Source: Loktanella sp. D2R18
Lineage (GTDB): Bacteria; Pseudomonadota; Alphaproteobacteria; Rhodobacterales; Rhodobacteraceae
Length of the DNA stretch: 64,000 nt
Assembly (NCBI RefSeq): GCF_003318235.1
Contig: NZ_QOCG01000006.1
Coordinates: 186,001-250,000 of the forward strand
Direction of reading: 5' to 3'
Every line of letters starts with the position of its first letter. Within the stretch, counting starts at the first letter, position 1. The notes beneath the pieces were generated by a model. The model was not told the DNA's origin. It made no database searches and saw nothing but the letters and a program-made list of their open reading frames with translations. Shown one piece after another: positions 8,263 to 17,399 of this stretch. The position numbers and the translations under genes were made by a program.

Positions 8263-8376
8263 TATTTCGGCACCGCGTCGAAAATGGCCCTGCGCCGTCA
8301 ATTGCCACGGCGTCGTCATGATCATGCCCTGTTGGTTGCTATGATACGACGCATCAGGACTTCTAAGGCATCTAAA

Positions 8377-8853
8377 ATGACGAATCTTATCCGCGCGATC
8401 AGCATCCTTTTTCTAACGCTATTTGGGCATTCTGCCTTAGCAAGCAATTGTGCCGTGCCGGAAAACGCGGATGCGCTTGTGGATGAGATTGCGGCAAGCG
8501 TAAATGCCACGCGGCGCGCAAACGGTGAAAGCACGTTGCGGATCAACCGTCGATTGGGCCGCGCTGCGGCAGCACATGCCTGTGACATGATGGAACATGA
8601 TTTCTTTGATCATCAAGGAACAGACGGATCAACTGTTTTGGTGCGGGTTGAAAACACCGGATATCGGCAATGCCTTGTGGGTGAAAACCTTGCTTGGGGA
8701 TACCCGGAATCGGCGCGTATCATCCGAGAGTGGATGCAATCGGCCGGTCACCGCGAAATCATGCTGCACCCGCGTATCGAAGAATTCGGTATCGGCATTT
8801 CCCAAGGCGAAAACGGCCCTTATTGGGTCATGGTCGTTGCAAAACGCTGCTAA
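8377..8853 (+). CDS. Secreted CAP-domain (SCP/PR1-like) protein
   Basis: This 158-residue protein has a signal peptide ([19 protein letters not shown]) and a CAP domain. Motifs include [20 protein letters not shown] and SAGHREIML, which carry the His and Glu residues of the CAP cavity. The cysteines in the mature part could form disulfides. Bacterial CAP proteins are periplasmic or secreted and poorly understood; some bind lipids or act on the envelope. The ATG at 8377 puts the signal peptide at the N-terminus; the frame is open upstream to 8284, but that part is Arg-rich and unlikely. It overlaps the stop of dtd by four bases. Confidence 0.85.
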
Positions 8854-9287
8854 ATATCCAACCAAATCGTAATGGGGCCATCATTGGTGAGGCTCACAGC
8901 CATATCGGCCCCAAATTCGCCCGTAGCGGTATTGATCCCCAATGCACCCATGTCTTTGATGAATTGTTCATAAAGCGCTTTGCCTTCAGCAGGGCGCGCA
9001 GCTGTCGAAAATCCGGGGCGGTTGCCGCGTGATGTATCCGCGGCCAAAGTGAATTGGCTCACAATCAGGGCCGATCCGCCTGTGTCGACAAGCGATCTGT
9101 TCATTTTGCCGGTGTCATCGGTAAAAATGCGTAGTTTGCTGATCTTGGCCGCCATTTGCGCCGATTTTGTCGCGTCATCGCCTTGCATTGCGCAGATCAG
9201 GATAAGCAGCCCTTGGTCGATTTCTCCGATCGTTTCGCCGGCAACACGCACCGATGCTGCGGTAACGCGCTGGATCAGTGCTCTCAT
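8850..9287 (-). CDS. dtd: D-aminoacyl-tRNA deacylase
   Basis: This 145-residue protein is full-length DTD. It has the diagnostic SQFTL motif (about residues 77-81) and the C-terminal NDGP motif (about 135-138), which form the cross-dimer active site and the Gly-cisPro chiral filter. It removes D-amino acids wrongly attached to tRNA. Its start overlaps the end of the upstream PfkB kinase gene by four bases, so it ends the long minus-strand array that starts with terC. It converges with the CAP gene with a four-base stop overlap and no room for a terminator. Confidence 0.95.
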
Positions 9288-10189
9288 AGCTCAGCGGCCC
9301 AAGGCGGGTTTGCACCTGCGCGGCTGACGGTGATCGCAGCGACCCGCGCGCCAAAGGCGGTGGCGGCTCTTAGGTCGTCACTTGTGACGCTGTGCAATGT
9401 CTCTTTGGTCAAAAGCCCGCGCCTATCCAATTCGGCCAAGAAACCGGCGCTGAACGTGTCGCCTGCGCCCACCGTGTCAACAACCGTGGCTTTTTGCGCG
9501 GGCACGTCAAATTGGTCCGTCGGCGTGACAACTGTGACCCCTTCGCTGCCGCGTGTTAGCAGGATGATTTTGGCGCCTGTGGCTTTCAGAAGGGCAGGCC
9601 CATCGGTATTGCCGGTTATCCATTCCAGATCCTCGTCGGATGATTTGATGATATCAGCGGCGCCTAACATGCGGGTCAATCGCGCGCGATAGCGGGTTTC
9701 ATCGGTGATAAAACTGGGGCGTATATTGGGATCAATCATGGTGACGCGGGCTGGGGCCTCGCGTAGCATCAGCGCTTCATAGGCGGCACCGCAGGGTTCG
9801 ACCACAAGGCTGATTCCGCCGAAGAATAATGCATCCGCACCGGGTGCAGGCAGATCATCAACCCCTAACATGCGCCCGGCCGTGTTTTCGTCATAAAATG
9901 CATATGAGGCATGACCATCGGTCAAGGTCACAAATGCCAAAGTTGTCGGGCGGTCAGATAGGGCGGCAGGGCTAGAATCTACATACGATTCTGCCAACCG
10001 TTCGCGCAAAATATCGCCAAATAGATCGTTCGAGATACCCGAAAAGAACTGCACAGGTCTGCCCAGCCGTCCCAACGCCACAGCGGTATTAAACACAGCG
10101 CCGCCAGCATGCGGGGCGAACGCGGGTTCGCACGCGTCATTCTGGCGCGGCAACATATCAATAAGGGCTTCGCCACAGCAGATGATCAT
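9284..10189 (-). CDS. PfkB family carbohydrate kinase (fructokinase-like)
   Basis: This 301-residue protein is a ribokinase-fold sugar kinase. The N-terminal [15 protein letters not shown] run and the C-terminal [13 protein letters not shown] motif, with catalytic Asp near 252, mark the PfkB signatures. The sequence is close to roseobacter fructokinases (Frk), which phosphorylate fructose; the specificity is inferred. A TTG at 10201 is also open, but the ATG at 10189 is preceded by GGAG at a good distance and starts normally ([11 protein letters not shown]). It lies 17 bases after the zinc-ribbon gene and overlaps dtd. Confidence 0.88.
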
Positions 10190-10206
10190 AGGGGTCTCCA
10201 AAATAT

Positions 10207-11295
10207 TTACTGGCTGTTAGCGATAACAATTCCTGCGATAATGGCAAGTATAACCGCAACAAGCGCCGCAATCTTCCACATAGAGTAGGGGCGTTCGCCT
10301 TGAACCTCACCTGTGCGCCCGTTCACAACAAATCGGTAGGTTTTTCCACGGTATTTATAAGCGGCGAGCCAGACAGGCAGCAGAATATGCTTAAAGGTTA
10401 CGTCGCTAACGTTTGTCTTGACCTTGTCGACACGTTGTTCATCCCCACCGATGTCCGATTTTACATCACGGTGGATGATGGCATCCATATGGGCATGGGC
10501 CTCTGCATAGCCGTCATTGATTTCGACCTGATAGCCTTCGGCACGAAAACCGGCCAGATATTCCGGCTGATATGGTTCTAACGAAGACAGATCCCAAGGT
10601 TGCAGCCCATCAGTGTAGTGTTTGGGCAAGGATTTGGACGCGAGTACAAGCACATCGTCGAAAAACCGTGCAACCCGGCCTGATTTGGGCTTCCAACGTG
10701 TTTTTTGCACGCGTACTTGGGTTTTTTTGCCATCTCGCATGACGGTTTTGGTTTCGTAGTAATGTGTGCCGCGTTGACCTGAATATTTGCTTTTTGTATC
10801 AGCATCAAAGGTCCAGTAAGGCACGTAGATACCATTTAGTTTTCGGCCCTTACGTGCATATTCCTTAAGCCCATTTGGCGCAAACCACAGGCTGCCCAGC
10901 CAGTTTGTGACCCCGGCGCGCGCGGTCGGTTCATCCAATCCGAACGGCAACACAGCTTGCGGTTTAATCTGGCGATGGGTGCCTGTGTCCGTGACAACAG
11001 GGGTGGCGCAAAATGGGCATTCGGTCGCGTGCAAATCTGCGTCAAATTCGGTTTGCGCCCCGCAATTGGGGCAAGATGTGACGCGGGTTTCCGCGATGTC
11101 CTCGGCCCCGAGGACATTGTCTTTGGCTGCAAGATAATCCAACTCGGCGATTATGCCGCCCGCCAATCGAATTTGTTGCGAGTTTCCACAATGGTCGCAG
11201 GTCAGTTGGCGCGCCGCTGGGTCAAACCGCAAATCAGACCCGCAGCTGTTACACGGAAACCGGTGTTCGGCTTCGGAATTAGGTTCGGAGTTCAT
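10207..11295 (-). CDS. TFIIB-type zinc-ribbon membrane protein (YdjG-like)
   Basis: This 362-residue protein has two N-terminal zinc ribbons (FPCNSCGSDL with CDHCGN, then CPNCGAQ with CPFC), a middle domain with RGTHYYETKTV and YVPYWTFDA, and one C-terminal membrane helix (about 340-358). The same plan is seen in B. subtilis YdjG and proteins often misnamed replication factor Y-like. YdjG is encoded with the SPFH protein YdjI, and here the SPFH gene is directly upstream, 62 bases away. The pair likely works at the inner membrane. An alternative GTG start exists at 11304; ATG 11295 seems better. Confidence 0.8.
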   Translation of the reverse strand: MNSEPNSEAEHRFPCNSCGSDLRFDPAARQLTCDHCGNSQQIRLAGGIIAELDYLAAKDNVLGAEDIAETRVTSCPNCGAQTEFDADLHATECPFCATPVVTDTGTHRQIKPQAVLPFGLDEPTARAGVTNWLGSLWFAPNGLKEYARKGRKLNGIYVPYWTFDADTKSKYSGQRGTHYYETKTVMRDGKKTQVRVQKTRWKPKSGRVARFFDDVLVLASKSLPKHYTDGLQPWDLSSLEPYQPEYLAGFRAEGYQVEINDGYAEAHAHMDAIIHRDVKSDIGGDEQRVDKVKTNVSDVTFKHILLPVWLAAYKYRGKTYRFVVNGRTGEVQGERPYSMWKIAALVAVILAIIAGIVIANSQ

Positions 11296-11325
11296 TACAA
11301 TCACTTTTTAAAATGCGTTGAGAAT

Positions 11326-11351
11326 GTGCGGCACCGGTGTAGGTGCCGCAC
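11326..11351 (-). promoter_or_regulatory. Intercistronic hairpin after the SPFH gene
   Basis: GTGCGGCACC at 11326-11335 and its exact complement at 11342-11351 form a 10-bp stem with a 6-base loop. On the minus strand it begins seven bases after the SPFH stop and precedes the zinc-ribbon gene. No T-run follows, so it may protect the upstream message or reduce downstream expression. Confidence 0.55.
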
Positions 11352-11357
11352 TAGATC

Positions 11358-12476
11358 TTATGCACCCGGCGGCGGCGGCGGCAGAATGGTGAAAAGCTGT
11401 GCGAGTTCCATAACGTCACCCGCTTTCATCCAGCCGTCTTGGCCTTGGGTCCAGACCATGCTGTCGCGCGACAGGGTGCCATCGGTGACTTTGCGTCCCA
11501 TCGCAGCCTTTGAAAACGGGCCGGACACTTCGCCAGCGACGGCAATGTGCCAAACATGTTCGACGGGCGGAGGTGGTGGCGGTGGCGCAACGGCGGCAGG
11601 TGCGGCGGCAGGCACAGCACCCCACGGTCCTTGGGCCATTTGCCCTGCCATCGCCAGCCCCATGCCTGCCCCCATACCAGCGGCCATCCCGCCTCCGGCA
11701 GGATTGCTGGCAGCGGCTGTCATGGCTTCTGCTGCAGAAAACTGCGTGTATTTGCCCAAATCTCCAGCAAGCCCTACCGAGGTGCGTTTATCCAACACGG
11801 CCTCGACCGCAGGTGGCAGGCTGATATTTTCGATGTAAAGCTCTGGGATTGATAGCCCGTATTGCTTCATGGTTTCGTCAATTGCCGTGGCAATAAGTTT
11901 ACCCAGATCAGCGGTATTGGCGGCCATATCCAGCACAGGAATGCCCGATGACGCGATCACGCGGCTGAATTCTTGCACGATGATATTGCGGATTTGATAG
12001 CTGATCTCATCCATGGTGAATTCGCCGTCGGTCCCAACGATTTCGCGCAGGAACACGGCAGGGTCTGCGACCTTAATCGTATAGGTGCCGTATGCCCGAA
12101 TGCGGGTTGGTCCAAATTCAGGGTCGCGCAGCATGATCGGGTTTTTAGTGCCCCACTTTAGGTCCGAAAACCGGGTCGTGTTGACGTAGTAGATTTCCGA
12201 TTTGAACGGGCTTTGGAACCCGTGATCCCAATGCTGCAAGGTCGTCATGATCGGCATGTTGTTGGTTTCAAGCATATACAAACCGGGAGTGAAAACATCA
12301 GCCAATTGGCCCTCGTGCACGAACACAGCCGCCTGACCTTCGCGCACTGTCAGCTTTGCGCCGTATTTAATTTCATGGTCTTCACGCTGAAACCGCCAGA
12401 CCATTGTGTCGCGGGTATCGTCCGTCCAGTGAATGACGTCGATAAATTCGCCGGTTAGAAAATCAAAAATGCCCAT
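11358..12476 (-). CDS. SPFH domain protein with C-terminal GYF_2 domain (YdjI-like)
   Basis: This 372-residue protein has an SPFH/virion-core-protein domain (about 1-240; KLTVREGQAAVFVHEGQLADVFTPG is family-typical), an Ala/Gly/Met-rich linker, a seven-proline run and a C-terminal GYF_2/DUF4339 domain (about 310-360; WHIAVAGEVSGPFS, MVWTQGQDGWMKAGDV). SPFH proteins assemble rings or scaffolds on membranes; YdjI of B. subtilis recruits PspA during envelope stress. No PspA gene is in the window. GYF-type domains usually bind proline-rich peptides. GGAGA 9 bases upstream supports the ATG. Confidence 0.85.
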   Translation of the reverse strand: MGIFDFLTGEFIDVIHWTDDTRDTMVWRFQREDHEIKYGAKLTVREGQAAVFVHEGQLADVFTPGLYMLETNNMPIMTTLQHWDHGFQSPFKSEIYYVNTTRFSDLKWGTKNPIMLRDPEFGPTRIRAYGTYTIKVADPAVFLREIVGTDGEFTMDEISYQIRNIIVQEFSRVIASSGIPVLDMAANTADLGKLIATAIDETMKQYGLSIPELYIENISLPPAVEAVLDKRTSVGLAGDLGKYTQFSAAEAMTAAASNPAGGGMAAGMGAGMGLAMAGQMAQGPWGAVPAAAPAAVAPPPPPPPVEHVWHIAVAGEVSGPFSKAAMGRKVTDGTLSRDSMVWTQGQDGWMKAGDVMELAQLFTILPPPPPGA

Positions 12477-12503
12477 CTGTTATGGTCTCCGTGGTTATAA
12501 GTC

Positions 12504-13439
12504 TTAACTGGCCCCTTGGGCCATCATATCGCGTGCGATTTGGCGTGCAATTGGGGCGGCTGTCGCAGGGTCCATACCTGCCTGAAGCCGTGGATCGTAA
12601 AGCATGCGCAATAGCATTTCGTCATGCGTCGTCAGTAGTGCGAATTCTTCGTCATCGTTAAAGATCGACGGGCGGGCACCGGGGCTATCATTGGCAAGCC
12701 CCATGCCTTGGGCCAATTCTTCGTGGATGCAGGCCGCGCGCATCAAGTTTGGATGCTCGGCGCGGATGATTGCGATGGCTTGGCTATAGGTGGATTCGCC
12801 GGGATCAAAGGTGCCAATGACGACGCAAAGCTGATCGCGCGGTAGGTCAACAATGGCGCGCACAGTTGCCGTCGAAATCGTGGGGATTAATTCACGCAGT
12901 CGCGGCTCAATCGCTTTGCGGTCGTCCTCGCCCAAGAACAGCACGTGATAGTTTGGACGCGGTTGATCAAAAGAAATCGGGACGCCCGTCACCCGCGAAA
13001 GGCGCGCGGCGTAGGATTCGACACTGGCGGTATCTTGGGCGCGCTGGGGATAGGGGACGGTGTCGCCGAACTCAATCTTCATGCGGATCGGATGTGCCCA
13101 ACGACGCAGGTTGGAGACGGTGCTTTGCGCGTTCCGAAAATCGCTATCGTCGCGGTATTCATTGAACAGTGCGATGCGGATGAAATTGCGCGCAAGGATC
13201 GTGTCGGTGAAGGTGGTGTCTGGGCCGCCGCCATCGCCACGCAGCAAGCCTTGGGTCAACAGGTCATTCTGAAGACGATTGTAATATACAGCGAGCCGCT
13301 GGCTTTCGGCGCTGGGCGTGGCTGCGACTGGCGGCGGGGGCAGGGCTTCGACAACTGGCGGCGTAGGGGTAGGTTCAGGTGGGGGCGTCACGCAGGCCGA
13401 AGTACCCGCCACAATGGCAAGCACGCCAAACCGCTGCAT
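12504..13439 (-). CDS. DUF2927 lipoprotein with metallopeptidase-like motif
   Basis: This 311-residue protein starts with a lipoprotein signal (FGVLAIVAGTSAC), then a proline-rich spacer and a DUF2927 domain. A zinc-protease-like motif, HEELAQGMGLAND, sits near residue 243, of the form HExxQxxGxxxD, with Glu in the catalytic place and no second His. A peptidase role is therefore possible but unproven. The ATG at 13439 follows a G-rich Shine-Dalgarno-like run; an ATG at 13457 is in frame but has no such site. It lies between telA and the SPFH gene with short gaps, so it is likely part of the same envelope module. Confidence 0.75.
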   Translation of the reverse strand: MQRFGVLAIVAGTSACVTPPPEPTPTPPVVEALPPPPVAATPSAESQRLAVYYNRLQNDLLTQGLLRGDGGGPDTTFTDTILARNFIRIALFNEYRDDSDFRNAQSTVSNLRRWAHPIRMKIEFGDTVPYPQRAQDTASVESYAARLSRVTGVPISFDQPRPNYHVLFLGEDDRKAIEPRLRELIPTISTATVRAIVDLPRDQLCVVIGTFDPGESTYSQAIAIIRAEHPNLMRAACIHEELAQGMGLANDSPGARPSIFNDDEEFALLTTHDEMLLRMLYDPRLQAGMDPATAAPIARQIARDMMAQGAS

Positions 13440-13462
13440 GATGCCCCCAAACCCCATTCGAT

Positions 13463-14653
13463 TTAGTCGCTAACCGCAGTGCCAACGTTGTCGCCCAGAC
13501 CTGTTTGTTTGGCCTTGGCGGCGGCAAGCGTATCTTTGAGCTCTGCTTCCATCTTTTTCATCTCGGCTTCTGCCTCAGACCGTTTGCGTTTGCCCTCATC
13601 CGCGATCTCAAGGCTTTCGTTGATTGTCGCGATTAGATTGGCGTTCGCTTCTTTCACGGCCTCGATATCAAACACGCCGCGTTCCATTTCTTCGCGGATT
13701 GTGCGGTTGGCCTGGCGTAGGTTTTGCGCATTTGCAGTCAGCAGTTCATTGGTCAGATCATTGGCATCACGCACGGCTTCTGCGGCCTCAGAAGACCGCT
13801 GAATTGTGACGGCTTGGGCCAATTGGGTTTCCCAAAGCGGCACAGTGTTGACGAGGGTCGAATTGATCTTAGTGACCAGTGACTTGTCGTTTTCTTGCAC
13901 CAAGCGAATCGACGGTAGCGATTGCATTGTCACCTGACGGGTCAGTTTCAGATCATGCACCCGGCGTTCAAGATCATCACGCGCAGAGCGGATATCGCGC
14001 AGTTCTTGCGCCATCATCACGGCTTTGTCTTCGGGGGCTGCTTGCACATCGGCTTCTTTTGCGGGGATGGTTGTCGCGTCTAGATCAGCGATCTTGGCCT
14101 CGCCCGCGGCGATATATAGCGCGAGTTCGTCATAAAATTGCAGCGTTTTGTCATAAAGCACATCAAGGCTTTCGATGTCTTTAAGTAGCACATGTTCGTG
14201 GCCCAAAAGATCATCAGTGATATTGTCGATCTGTCCCTGCACGTCTTCGAATTGGGCGACGAATTTTGCCATAGGTGCTGCGCGGCCCAGAAGTTTTTCC
14301 CACCAGCTACGCTTGCGGCGCACATCAAGTTCAGAGATAGAAAAGCCACGGATCGTAGTGACGATATTGCGCAGGCTGTCACCTGCTGGACCCACGTCTT
14401 TGTTGCGTACACCGGCCAGCATTTCTTGACTGATGACTTGCAATTCGGCCTGTGCGGATGACCCAAACGACACGATGGAATTCGTATCTGTCACGTCAAT
14501 TTCAGCGATGCGGCGGGTGATTTCTGCACTTGTCGGCGCATCTGCTGCCTCTAACGTGACCAACTCACCCTTTGGTTCTGGCAGCACAACGGCGGTGATT
14601 TTCGCGACATCCGCAAGGGCGGCTTCGGCTTTTTGGCGGGTTGTCTCGGTCAT
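13463..14653 (-). CDS. telA: TelA family toxic-anion-resistance protein
   Basis: This 396-residue, mostly coiled-coil protein matches the TelA family, named for tellurite resistance. Family-like segments include KRSWWEKLLGRA, DDLLGHEHVLLKDIESLD, LPSIRLVQENDKSLV and the VPLWETQLAQAV run. The C-terminal third is charged, Lys/Glu-rich helix. The biochemical role is not known; TelA genes are found with xpaC and TerC genes in predicted membrane and metal stress systems. Its start overlaps the end of xpaC by four bases, giving tight co-expression. Confidence 0.9.
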   Translation of the reverse strand: MTETTRQKAEAALADVAKITAVVLPEPKGELVTLEAADAPTSAEITRRIAEIDVTDTNSIVSFGSSAQAELQVISQEMLAGVRNKDVGPAGDSLRNIVTTIRGFSISELDVRRKRSWWEKLLGRAAPMAKFVAQFEDVQGQIDNITDDLLGHEHVLLKDIESLDVLYDKTLQFYDELALYIAAGEAKIADLDATTIPAKEADVQAAPEDKAVMMAQELRDIRSARDDLERRVHDLKLTRQVTMQSLPSIRLVQENDKSLVTKINSTLVNTVPLWETQLAQAVTIQRSSEAAEAVRDANDLTNELLTANAQNLRQANRTIREEMERGVFDIEAVKEANANLIATINESLEIADEGKRKRSEAEAEMKKMEAELKDTLAAAKAKQTGLGDNVGTAVSD

Positions 14654-15546
14654 GTGTCAGTTCCTTTGTTTTGCATGGCGACGCCTTCGCGTTGGAGGCG
14701 ATCACGTAATACGTTGATTTCAATGTCCATATCGCTGCGGTCATCGCGCATCATCACGTCGGTGCGTGCAGCAAAATTTGTTTCTAGATCGTCCAGCAAG
14801 GCATCGTAATTTGCGCGCGCATCACTGTCGGGTTTGCGTTGATAAAGATCAACAAATTTGATAGTCGCGTCGCGTGCCCCTTGCAGATAAATCCCAAGGA
14901 ATTTGCGCGCGCCCGACAGATCACGTGGGTCTTCTTCGACTGTGTGGATCATTTTGCGTGCCAACGTTTGGAAGGTCGCGACCCGCATTGTCAGTTTGCG
15001 ATCATCCAGAATATCGATCTGTTCTTGCATGGTTTCCAGATGCGCTTCGGCCTTGTCGACAACCCGCGCAACCCGGTCTTGCTGGAAATCATCAATGCCA
15101 TCCATGCGTTTATCCGTTAACGGATCAATGCCAAAGGCGGCAACATGCAGCCCCAATGCCGCGACGCCATAAAGGACAGACCCCATGATCCCGCTGTCAC
15201 CCGTATAGGCTGCAATCGTGATGCCGATGCCTGTCAGCACTGATGCCATCATCTTGCGTGGGATTGCAGGACGGCGGGCGACTTTACGTGCGTCATACGC
15301 CGCCTGCGCGACCAACCCTTCTTGCAGTAGCCAAGCGGCCAACGTCAGGATCGCCCCGCCGATCAATGCCGTGACCAACGTGGTTGGCCCATCGTTCAAC
15401 GAGGTCACAACCAAGATGATGGCTGGTACAAACAACAAACGCGCGGGCGATTTTGCAGCGCGCGCTTGGCGCACATCGATCACCGCTTCGCGCGGGGCGT
15501 CATTTGTGCCGTCTGGGCTATGTTTTCCACCAAATCGTTTTGCCAT
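14650..15546 (-). CDS. XpaC-like membrane protein (5-bromo-4-chloroindolyl phosphate hydrolysis family)
   Basis: This 298-residue protein has four N-terminal membrane helices in two pairs (about residues 34-72 and 98-136) and a long cytoplasmic coiled-coil region rich in Asp/Arg. It matches the XpaC family. The family name comes from an early phenotype in Bacillus; no phosphatase motif is visible, so an enzyme role should not be assumed. XpaC and TelA are regular partners. The ATG shares one base with the stop of the 28-residue ORF upstream (TAATG), and its own end overlaps telA by four bases. Confidence 0.85.
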   Translation of the reverse strand: MAKRFGGKHSPDGTNDAPREAVIDVRQARAAKSPARLLFVPAIILVVTSLNDGPTTLVTALIGGAILTLAAWLLQEGLVAQAAYDARKVARRPAIPRKMMASVLTGIGITIAAYTGDSGIMGSVLYGVAALGLHVAAFGIDPLTDKRMDGIDDFQQDRVARVVDKAEAHLETMQEQIDILDDRKLTMRVATFQTLARKMIHTVEEDPRDLSGARKFLGIYLQGARDATIKFVDLYQRKPDSDARANYDALLDDLETNFAARTDVMMRDDRSDMDIEINVLRDRLQREGVAMQNKGTDT

Positions 15547-15632
15547 TAGGACGCCCCCAGCCAGCCTGACGTAACGCCAAACATTAAGATCAATAGGACG
15601 ATGTAACTGATGCGCTTAAATGTCTGAGGCAT
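15546..15632 (-). CDS. Candidate 28-residue single-helix membrane microprotein
   Basis: Between terC and xpaC an ATG at 15632 opens a 28-codon frame: a short basic start (MPQTFKR), one hydrophobic helix (about residues 8-22), then GWLGAS. A Shine-Dalgarno site, AAGGA, lies eight bases upstream. The stop codon shares one base with the xpaC start (TAATG), typical of translational coupling. The gap would otherwise be about 100 unexplained bases in a packed operon. It could be a membrane regulator or simply a coupling leader peptide. Expression is not shown. Confidence 0.6.
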   Translation of the reverse strand: MPQTFKRISYIVLLILMFGVTSGWLGAS

Positions 15633-15649
15633 AGGGGGTCCTTGGTGGG

Positions 15650-16468
15650 TTAGTGCTTTTGTTCGGCTTGGCGCTGAGCAGCCAGTTTCCGGCTATAACC
15701 GGACTGAATGATCTCAACCGCGACCAGCACCAACACTGAAAAGTAGAATGTGGATTTGGACATTGGGATAATGTCTTTGCCAAATACTTTGATGTTGAGC
15801 GTATCATCATGCACGGCATGTGCCGCGGCAGGGCCAGCTTCGCCTAATAGAACGACACCAACGATCAACAAGATGAAAAGGCCAAGCACCTCGTACATAC
15901 GGTTCTTTTCCAAGAAACGTGTGACGCCATCCGCCAGAAGCAACATCGCAAGCCCTGATAGGATGATCGCAATCGCCAAAACCGGGAACACATCGGTAAT
16001 CGCCAGCGCAGAAAGGACCGAATCAAACGAAAAAATCAGGTTCATGATGACGATCATGATCACAACTTGTGTCGCCGATTTCCCTGACTTGCCACTCACA
16101 TCGTGGCCAAGGTTGTCCATCGACAACATGTGACCAATTTCTTTAACGGCGGTGTACATAATAAACACCCCACCCACGACGAACACGATGGTCGCAAAGT
16201 TTACGCCGCCCTCAAGTATGCCGACCCAATCCATGATGAAAAACGGCGCGGAAAGCGCATCGATCAGTTTGATCATTACAAACAGCAACACAACCCGCAG
16301 TGCTACGGCAACGATAATGCCCCATGTGCGTACCGATTTTTGCTGCGCAACGGGCGCGCGTTGGCTCTCGATTGAGATATAAAGAAGGTTATCAAATCCC
16401 AAAACAGCCTGCAAAAAGCAAAGCATGAGCAGGTTGGTCGCGTTTTCAAGTGTCAGCAGGTCGGTCAA
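15650..16468 (-). CDS. TerC family integral membrane protein
   Basis: This 272-residue protein has about seven membrane helices and the TerC motifs GFDNLLYIS (near residue 24) and FSFDSVLSALAI (near 147), each with conserved acidic residues in the membrane. TerC-family proteins act in tellurite resistance, manganese export or metalation of exported proteins. It is the first gene of the xpaC-telA-SPFH array. The start is TTG at 16468, supported by AAGGA seven bases upstream. A loop with His residues (AAHAVHDD) could face the metal side. Exact substrate unknown. Confidence 0.85.
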   Translation of the reverse strand: MTDLLTLENATNLLMLCFLQAVLGFDNLLYISIESQRAPVAQQKSVRTWGIIVAVALRVVLLFVMIKLIDALSAPFFIMDWVGILEGGVNFATIVFVVGGVFIMYTAVKEIGHMLSMDNLGHDVSGKSGKSATQVVIMIVIMNLIFSFDSVLSALAITDVFPVLAIAIILSGLAMLLLADGVTRFLEKNRMYEVLGLFILLIVGVVLLGEAGPAAAHAVHDDTLNIKVFGKDIIPMSKSTFYFSVLVLVAVEIIQSGYSRKLAAQRQAEQKH

Positions 16469-16532: not shown

Positions 16533-17333
16533 TCAGCTGCGCTGATTTTTTCTTTTGGCCGGCCGATTAACCGGTTTCCGGACCCTTGTTGGCGTTGGTT
16601 TGCCTGAAATCCCCAGTTGATCGCGGACAACACGCTGTTTGAGTTCCTCTACGTCACCTTGTTTTAGGTCGCCCAATTGGAACGGCCCATAGCTGACCCG
16701 GATCAGACGGTTCACAGTCACGCCGATAGCTTCCATTGTGCGACGAATTTCGCGGTTTTTACCTTCGCGGATCGAAACAGTCAGCCAAGCGTTTGCGCCT
16801 TGTTGGCGATCAAACGTTACGATCATAGGTTGGTATTTGATCCCGTCCACGACAATTCCTGCGCGCAATTGGTCCAATTTTGCTTCGCTAACGGACCCGT
16901 TGATGCGCACGCGGTAACGGCGCAGCCAGCCGGTAGCGGGCAGTTCAAGTTTGCGTTTCACGCCGCCATCATTGGTCAGCAACAGCAGCCCTTCGGAATT
17001 CAGATCAAGCCGTCCAATTGACATGACACGCGGCATGGTTTCGGGCAGGGCGCCAAATACTGTCGGGCGGTCCTTTTCATCGCGTTCGGTTGTCACAAGG
17101 CCAGCAGGCTTATGATACAGCCAGATGCGGGGTGGATCAGGTTCGCCGACCAGCTTGCCGTCAGCAGTGATTTTGTCACTGGATGTGACGTTCAGCGCTG
17201 GGCTGTCGATTGTCTTGCCATTCACGGTCACGCGGCCATCCGCAATCATGCGTTCAGCTTCGCGGCGGCTGGCAATACCTGCGCGAGAAAGGACTTTGGC
17301 GATGCGATCGCCCGAAGGTGTGTCATTGGTCAT
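16533..17333 (-). CDS. rluB: 23S rRNA pseudouridine synthase, RluB/RsuA type
   Basis: This 266-residue protein has an N-terminal S4 RNA-binding domain (RIAKVLSRAGIASRREAERM, residues 9-28) and a pseudouridine synthase domain. The catalytic Asp is in GRLDLNSEGLLLLTNDG near residue 105, and the KxNREIRR run (EGKNREIRRTMEAIG) is near 195. It isomerises a uridine in large-subunit rRNA; RluB is more likely than RsuA by size and the basic C-terminal tail. ATG 17333 gives the usual short N-terminus; earlier in-frame ATGs run toward the tadA promoter region. It is divergent from tadA. Confidence 0.9.
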   Translation of the reverse strand: MTNDTPSGDRIAKVLSRAGIASRREAERMIADGRVTVNGKTIDSPALNVTSSDKITADGKLVGEPDPPRIWLYHKPAGLVTTERDEKDRPTVFGALPETMPRVMSIGRLDLNSEGLLLLTNDGGVKRKLELPATGWLRRYRVRINGSVSEAKLDQLRAGIVVDGIKYQPMIVTFDRQQGANAWLTVSIREGKNREIRRTMEAIGVTVNRLIRVSYGPFQLGDLKQGDVEELKQRVVRDQLGISGKPTPTRVRKPVNRPAKRKNQRS

Positions 17334-17399
17334 ACTACTGCCCATAGCGGCTTTGATCGGCCCTTGCCAGTGGGTGCATTGCCGGGGCATCACATTGGC

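Follow-up and report, generated by a model that had tools for sequence, protein, structure and literature searches.

A co-retained XpaC, TelA and SPFH module with a conserved microprotein gene and a separable DUF2927 lipoprotein of predicted matrix-metalloproteinase fold in Rhodobacteraceae

The stretch analyzed here, 64,000 nucleotides of the Loktanella sp. D2R18 genome (hereafter the window), carries a compact array of nine genes on the minus strand between positions 16468 and 8850. Their order is terC, a microprotein gene, xpaC, telA, DUF2927, spfh, znr, pfkB and dtd; this order and the common strand had been proposed in a preliminary description of the window and were confirmed. With the listed start codons the intergenic gaps are 17, −1, −4, 5, 27, 53, 5 and −4 bases. 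The range of −4 to about 62 bases given earlier thus holds at its lower end, whereas its upper end is 53 bases with the listed starts and reaches 62 bases only if znr starts at the ATG at 11295. Judged by eye, this ATG and those at 13439 (DUF2927) and 10189 (pfkB) are the likelier starts, and the DUF2927 start at 13439 matches a 311-amino-acid (aa) database protein from a close relative. Seven of the nine products passed a Pfam cut-off (PF03741, PF10112, PF05816, PF11150, PF13421 together with PF14237, PF00294, and PF02580); the microprotein was outside the scan, and the zinc-ribbon protein stayed below the cut-off. A promoter scan was uninformative, with three sigma-70-like sites compared to 7.2 expected by shuffling.

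The XpaC (Halogen_Hydrol) protein (14650–15546; PF10112, 89 bits) has hydropathy peaks at residues 30–48, 56–74 and 120–138, corresponding to two to three hydrophobic segments in its first half, and its C-terminal part appears to be helical and cytoplasmic. It is preceded by a 28-aa microprotein with a single transmembrane (TM) segment (15546–15632), whose stop codon overlaps the xpaC ATG by one base. TelA (13463–14653; PF05816, 358 bits) is modelled by AlphaFold2 as a soluble protein built of helices throughout, including a long hairpin (helices 127–205 and 208–300; predicted local distance difference test score, pLDDT, 68.3). The gene downstream of telA encodes a DUF2927 lipoprotein with a predicted fold resembling matrix metalloproteinases (MMPs) (12504–13457, start possibly at 13439; PF11150 over the cut-off). 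The SPFH (Band_7_1) protein (11358–12476; PF13421, 333 bits) continues through a proline-rich linker into a GYF_2 domain (PF14237, 66 bits), and the znr product (10207–11304, start possibly at 11295) has two CxxC...CxxC zinc ribbons and a C-terminal TM segment at residues 345–363, with all of its zinc-ribbon Pfam matches under the cut-off. The outer genes encode a TerC family membrane protein with a TTG start (15650–16468; PF03741, 123.5 bits, cut-off 27.8), a PfkB sugar kinase (9284–10201, start possibly the ATG at 10189; PF00294, 151 bits) and, as a housekeeping neighbour, the D-aminoacyl-tRNA deacylase Dtd (8850–9287; TIGR00256, 179 bits, cut-off 101.5; PF02580). An RluB-like pseudouridine synthase gene (16533–17393; TIGR00093, 140.6 bits, cut-off 109.3) lies on the same strand 64 bases upstream of the array and is a constant neighbour on that side.

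Loci of relatives were obtained from a TelA scan of genome contigs, which contributed the best 80 of 559 confirmed stretches, and from a TelA search of 149 Rhodobacteraceae genomes (133 positive, 16 negative), which supplied 30 short loci of at most 4 kb. The 80 contig loci represent the closest relatives, so locus counts lean to near kin. None of the 110 loci, many of which are short and hold only a part of the array, contradicts the order rluB-(terC)-xpaC-telA-DUF2927-spfh-znr-(pfkB)-dtd, and therefore the array is not a product of chance. Counted over loci long enough to judge, the core consists of xpaC (108/109 loci, and located <200 bases from telA in 108/109), DUF2927 (104/108), SPFH (74/75) and the zinc ribbon (72/74), bracketed by rluB (74/74) and dtd (68/74), whereas terC (34/78) and pfkB (35/74) are variable members. 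A further 12 family loci, chosen mostly for lower TelA scores (L123–L133 and L153), all contained telA, DUF2927 and SPFH; xpaC was upstream in 11 of them, at a distance of ~0.8 kb from telA in L126, and the zinc ribbon was found in 10/12, with a split across two frames in L124 and one miss at a contig end. The array is old, and its chromosomal location between rluB and dtd is stable. This comparison within the Rhodobacteraceae, in which the gene order is kept, bears out the earlier statement that an XpaC/TelA set and an SPFH/zinc-ribbon set are joined in one array.

Retention and loss of these genes were followed by genome-wide searches of 46 of the 133 TelA-positive family genomes, picked mainly for completeness, and of the 16 TelA-negative genomes. 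XpaC and SPFH (Band_7_1) were both found in 46/46 TelA-positive genomes. In the TelA-negative genomes XpaC exceeded the cut-off in 0/16, with one 21-bit match below it, and SPFH did so in 2/16. One of these two exceptions is a contig-edge fragment with spfh-znr (L112) from a 78% complete genome, in which telA might merely be missing from the assembly; the second exception is a match of 27.9 bits. In three of the 46 TelA-positive genomes a member lies outside the array and is kept all the same, namely SPFH 37 kb off (G018), XpaC ~200 kb off (G023), and XpaC at a distant place on the same contig (G104). A DUF2927 tree of 122 rows was calculated by a quick method without bootstrap and contains some long branches. 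Its six TelA-negative rows require six changes, at least three of which are forced by well-supported branches. XpaC, TelA and the SPFH/GYF_2 protein thus behave as one module, which is kept or lost together. TerC does not follow TelA, because it is present in 15/20 TelA-positive and in 8/10 TelA-negative genomes searched. Two TerC-centred places in TelA-negative genomes (L176 and L177) contained no array genes other than a weak terC and a distant pfkB. The co-occurrence expected in the preliminary description therefore applies to XpaC, TelA and SPFH but not to TerC.

Outside the family, loci were mapped by profile searches of stop-to-stop frames. The arrangement xpaC-telA-spfh-znr was recovered without DUF2927 in two other Alphaproteobacteria (L116 and L118), and a locus from another class (L150) combines xpaC-telA with a GYF_2 protein that has a sub-threshold Band_7_1 match. 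The remaining neighbourhoods in non-family Alphaproteobacteria vary, with telA alone in some and telA plus a weak xpaC match in others. At L115 and L135, telA is followed by a lipoprotein-like gene (SBP_bac_11 and VWA), then by a weak match to XpaC and by one more gene, which at L135 is SBP-like at a score below the cut-off. TelA is patchily distributed both in the class (11/115 genomes, 10 of them over the cut-off and two belonging to the same family) and in the phylum (40/249 genomes, 38 over the cut-off), and 596 records of plasmid TelA were listed.

The existence of the microprotein gene, which the preliminary description had proposed, was assessed in 111 loci, including that of the window, by screening for TM-bearing open reading frames (ORFs) of 20–40 codons that end at a gene start. 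Such a microORF was found at the xpaC start in 106/111 loci, with lengths centring on 27–29 aa. Among control starts, compared with 106/110 for xpaC, the test was negative for telA (0/110), DUF2927 (0/104), spfh (0/79) and terC (0/34), and positive in part for pfkB (14/35), znr (4/74) and dtd (3/68); the pfkB-start positives probably represent the end of the TM segment of the zinc-ribbon protein. Of the five loci outside the count (L059, L063, L084, L087 and L099), three (L059, L084 and L099) contain a similar peptide as judged by eye. Some loci have a longer form of 60–85 aa with an extra TM segment. A search with one such form retrieved 82 database proteins, mostly unnamed, with some labelled 'hypothetical' or annotated inconsistently, for example as 'cell division protein FtsX'. 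The proportions of nonsynonymous (pN) and synonymous (pS) differences were 0.106 and 0.497 (274 pairs that are 4–30% different and not independent of each other; pN/pS ~0.2), and the three codon positions accounted for 0.29, 0.12 and 0.59 of the changes. This ratio, together with the codon-position pattern, identifies the microORF as protein-coding, and the microprotein is a real gene. Basic residues ahead of the TM segment suggest that its N-terminus faces the inside of the cell.

The same element could instead be a leader peptide or a translational-coupling device for xpaC rather than a working protein. Its position would fit this role, as the stop codon overlaps the xpaC start by one base in 54/106 loci and lies within 5 bases of it in 105/106. 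The low pN/pS ratio, the conserved TM segment with its basic N-terminus and the longer two-TM forms speak against a mere leader, and so do the microORFs found outside the family, where a looser test (hydropathy >1.9 and a wider window) was applied to six loci. Similar TM microORFs precede xpaC in three of them (L116, L119 and L150), the inner 27-aa start in L119 having been taken by eye. In L118 the contig stops on the upstream side of xpaC. With the looser test no TM microORF was found in L115 and L120, which have an xpaC-like gene in a different gene order. We therefore regard the leader explanation as improbable. Many forms of the microprotein are no longer than the minimum that gene callers usually apply, which would explain the missing annotation.

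DUF2927 is predicted to adopt the metzincin catalytic-domain fold of matrix metalloproteinases. These and other metzincins are characterized by the motif HExxHxxGxxH/D and a Met-turn methionine, whereas DUF2927 has neither. In place of HExxHxxGxxH it contains EExxQxxGxxN (E246-E247-xx-Q250-xx-G253-xx-N256), and the Met-turn methionine is replaced by phenylalanine. In an alignment of 105 rows, two of which are the window's own gene, E246, E247, G253 and N256 are present in 105/105 rows, Q250 and D257 in 104/105, and F266, assigned by its position after the motif, in 104/105. The position of the general-base glutamate is retained by spacing (E247), whereas a canonical ligand occurs at 0/3 zinc-binding positions. 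Peptidase relatives at the sequence level were detected neither among PDB sequences nor in Pfam (58 members). A lipobox was recognized in 95/105 DUF2927 proteins (loose pattern, upstream extension), and eight of the ten misses have a hydrophobic stretch ending in MGC, which is outside the pattern. With this fold and the altered ligands, a role in binding or sensing at the outer face is more likely for DUF2927 than ordinary zinc protease activity. The Loktanella genome encodes a second DUF2927 protein (G000:C30:224291-224890, L167; 458-aa frame), which shares the EExxQxxGxxN motif and has S-V-Y in the place of the Met-turn.

Alternatively, DUF2927 may be an active, unusual metallopeptidase or a metal-binding lipoprotein that receives manganese or another metal via TerC, and the array would then serve metal and envelope homeostasis. 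The predicted fold, the spacing of E247 and the fixed or nearly fixed E246, Q250, N256 and D257 are compatible with this view. In addition, terC lies directly ahead of DUF2927 in two genomes that lack the module (G061 and G089), and TerC proteins of Bacillus subtilis are described as metalating exported enzymes (PMC12096827). Taken together, the two observations make it a reasonable alternative that TerC supplies DUF2927 with metal. Against it stand the loss of all three canonical zinc ligands, the phenylalanine in the Met-turn, and the absence of terC from 44/78 loci, and we consider this explanation unlikely as well.

The persistence of DUF2927 in genomes without TelA sets it apart from the module. 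DUF2927 was found in 9/16 TelA-negative genomes, six of which carry the array type according to profile score; of the other three, G095 and G108 have only a divergent paralogue, and G022 has a weak Pfam match missed by the profile. In five of the six genomes the array-type gene adjoins rluB or rluB-terC: the order is rluB-terC-DUF2927 in L170, rluB-DUF2927 in L174 and L175, and rluB-DUF2927 in L173, where the contig ends directly after DUF2927 and the downstream side is unreadable. L171 reads rluB-terC-[129-aa XpaC-like fragment]-DUF2927-dtd, and in L172 the readable surroundings of DUF2927 contain no rluB. All six places (L170–L175) were negative for telA, spfh and znr, and thus the genes flanking DUF2927 on both sides seem to have been lost while DUF2927 stayed. 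The fragment in L171 (9333–9719, minus strand), from a TelA-negative genome, is a stand-alone ORF that resembles the C-terminal portion of XpaC. Because the stretch ahead of DUF2927 at this locus, VSDTGLKKLTFSW, is close to the start of the microprotein as judged by eye, the deletion seems to have begun inside the microprotein gene. Since DUF2927 outlives the module, and the module in turn occurs without DUF2927 in L116 and L118, the lipoprotein is separable; its inclusion in the machine by the preliminary description was not supported. Like terC, pfkB and dtd, DUF2927 is an accessory.

Two broader explanations of the array were weighed against these data. The gene order could be an ancient synteny of housekeeping type around rluB and dtd, with no functional connection between the genes. 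The constant bracketing by these two genes would agree with this idea, but XpaC or SPFH are kept even when displaced, both are jointly absent from TelA-negative genomes, and the same four genes occur together in two other Alphaproteobacteria, all of which renders mere synteny quite improbable. The least probable explanation is the earlier proposal of a single membrane-stress machine that spans both faces of the membrane and is made up of all nine gene products, TerC, DUF2927, the sugar kinase and Dtd included. Despite the tight one-strand packing in the window, terC and pfkB are each lacking in over half of the loci, TerC occurs independently of TelA, DUF2927 remains beside rluB or rluB-terC after loss of the module, and Dtd is a tRNA quality enzyme. 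The joint retention and loss of XpaC, TelA and SPFH is what a single machine would predict.

Several other genes were noted around the array. A 140-aa membrane protein is inserted between spfh and znr in some loci (cluster of 23 ORFs, e.g., L006:11307-11726); it has several histidines and appears cytochrome-b561-like by eye, and the one representative scanned had no Pfam match. A nitroreductase (cluster of 29 ORFs) is found ahead of dtd or pfkB. In the window, a secreted CAP-domain protein (8284–8850, plus strand; best NCBIfam relative DalA, below the cut-off) faces the array end, and a CAP-domain gene also lies beyond dtd in several close relatives. Anti-phage defence was considered as a function and rejected, as PADLOC gave no match for the six proteins from TerC to the zinc ribbon.

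Published work offers two systems for comparison. In Bacillota, XpaC and TelA genes of the same two families are adjacent as in the array (llmg_1115/1116 of Lactococcus lactis; lmo1966-1967 of Listeria); they react to stress on the membrane or to bacteriocins, and their loss weakens growth or nisin tolerance (PMC3139573, PMC12791056). According to these sources, llmg_1115/1116 belong to the CesSR regulon of L. lactis, and their deletion causes a partial growth defect when the cells are overloaded with membrane proteins (PMC3139573), while a Listeria lmo1967 mutant is cited as more sensitive to nisin and tellurite (PMC12791056). The array differs from these pairs, as described there, by the additional SPFH/GYF_2 and zinc-ribbon genes and the TM microprotein gene upstream. 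The second system is B. subtilis pspA-ydjGHI, which shares a Band_7_1 SPFH protein with the array (the family was also positive in a B. subtilis control) and whose YdjG may have a counterpart in the double zinc-ribbon TM protein. Its scaffold logic, in which PspA is recruited by YdjI together with YdjG/H (PMC8581546, PMC11237479), served as a model here. In the array, TelA and XpaC stand in place of PspA and the TPM protein YdjH, and the SPFH protein ends in GYF_2, whereas its B. subtilis counterpart ends in a zinc ribbon. No PspA/IM30 or TPM family member was found by Pfam among those array products that were scanned. The YdjI/YdjG likeness suggested earlier extends to the Band_7_1 SPFH protein and perhaps to the zinc-ribbon protein; the array is not the Bacillus ydjFGHI set. 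The main text of the comparative phage shock protein paper mentions neither TelA nor TerC (PMC11237479). The TerC of the array exceeds the cut-off of PF03741, the family of the metal exporters/chaperones MeeF and MeeY, but does not reach those of the YkoY and YjbE subfamily models. The label 'Ter-type' would refer to TerC and TelA, as no search for other Ter proteins such as TerD was made.

From the published TelA/XpaC and YdjI work we infer a membrane-stress function and contacts among the array proteins. The reading that we favour, with somewhat better than even confidence, is an inner-membrane module consisting of the microprotein, XpaC, TelA, the SPFH/GYF_2 protein and the zinc-ribbon protein, with accessories around it. 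XpaC and the co-translated single-TM microprotein would form a membrane anchor, and TelA, as a soluble long-helix protein, would be recruited to the inner side of the membrane. SPFH, held at the membrane by the zinc-ribbon TM protein, would build a scaffold on which TelA gathers upon membrane damage or overload, in parallel to the recruitment of PspA by YdjI with YdjG/YdjH in Bacillus. TerC, where present, may supply metal to exported proteins. A more far-reaching version is tentative: the module might act in membrane repair with TelA in PspA's place on the SPFH/zinc-ribbon scaffold, XpaC and the microprotein as anchor, and, in Rhodobacteraceae, a periplasmic readout by DUF2927 as an MMP pseudo-enzyme, whose EExxQxxGxxN motif would be fixed by selection.

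Several points weigh against the module as drawn here. The best structure matches of the modest TelA model (pLDDT 68) are generic long helical bundles, from which a PspA-like fold does not follow, and PspA is encoded elsewhere in the genome (contig G000:C32), so that a PspA replacement is not needed. The zinc-ribbon protein is under every Pfam cut-off and is thus no more than a putative relative of YdjG, and the data on its co-loss refer to the locus level. In 18/20 non-family Alphaproteobacteria TelA loci no SPFH gene was found at the locus, and TelA can thus probably work without SPFH. Finally, the Fisher p values for association with TelA (4e-15 for XpaC and 4e-12 for SPFH) overstate its strength, as the genomes are related.

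The families concerned are known, whereas their joined and co-lost module, the microprotein and the MMP fold of DUF2927 were not encountered in the literature searched, which comprised open-licence papers and included no search aimed at the microprotein itself. TelA and XpaC occur in distant bacteria; single-sequence searches revealed no solved structure for either, and the same literature, in which XpaC alone was not a search term, contained no mechanism. Their link by co-loss to an SPFH/zinc-ribbon scaffold provides a defined set of proteins for joint testing. The conserved microprotein tends to be hidden by short-ORF cut-offs. Together with a lipoprotein of predicted MMP fold and rewritten metal site, it would give a handle on families that are labelled unknown.

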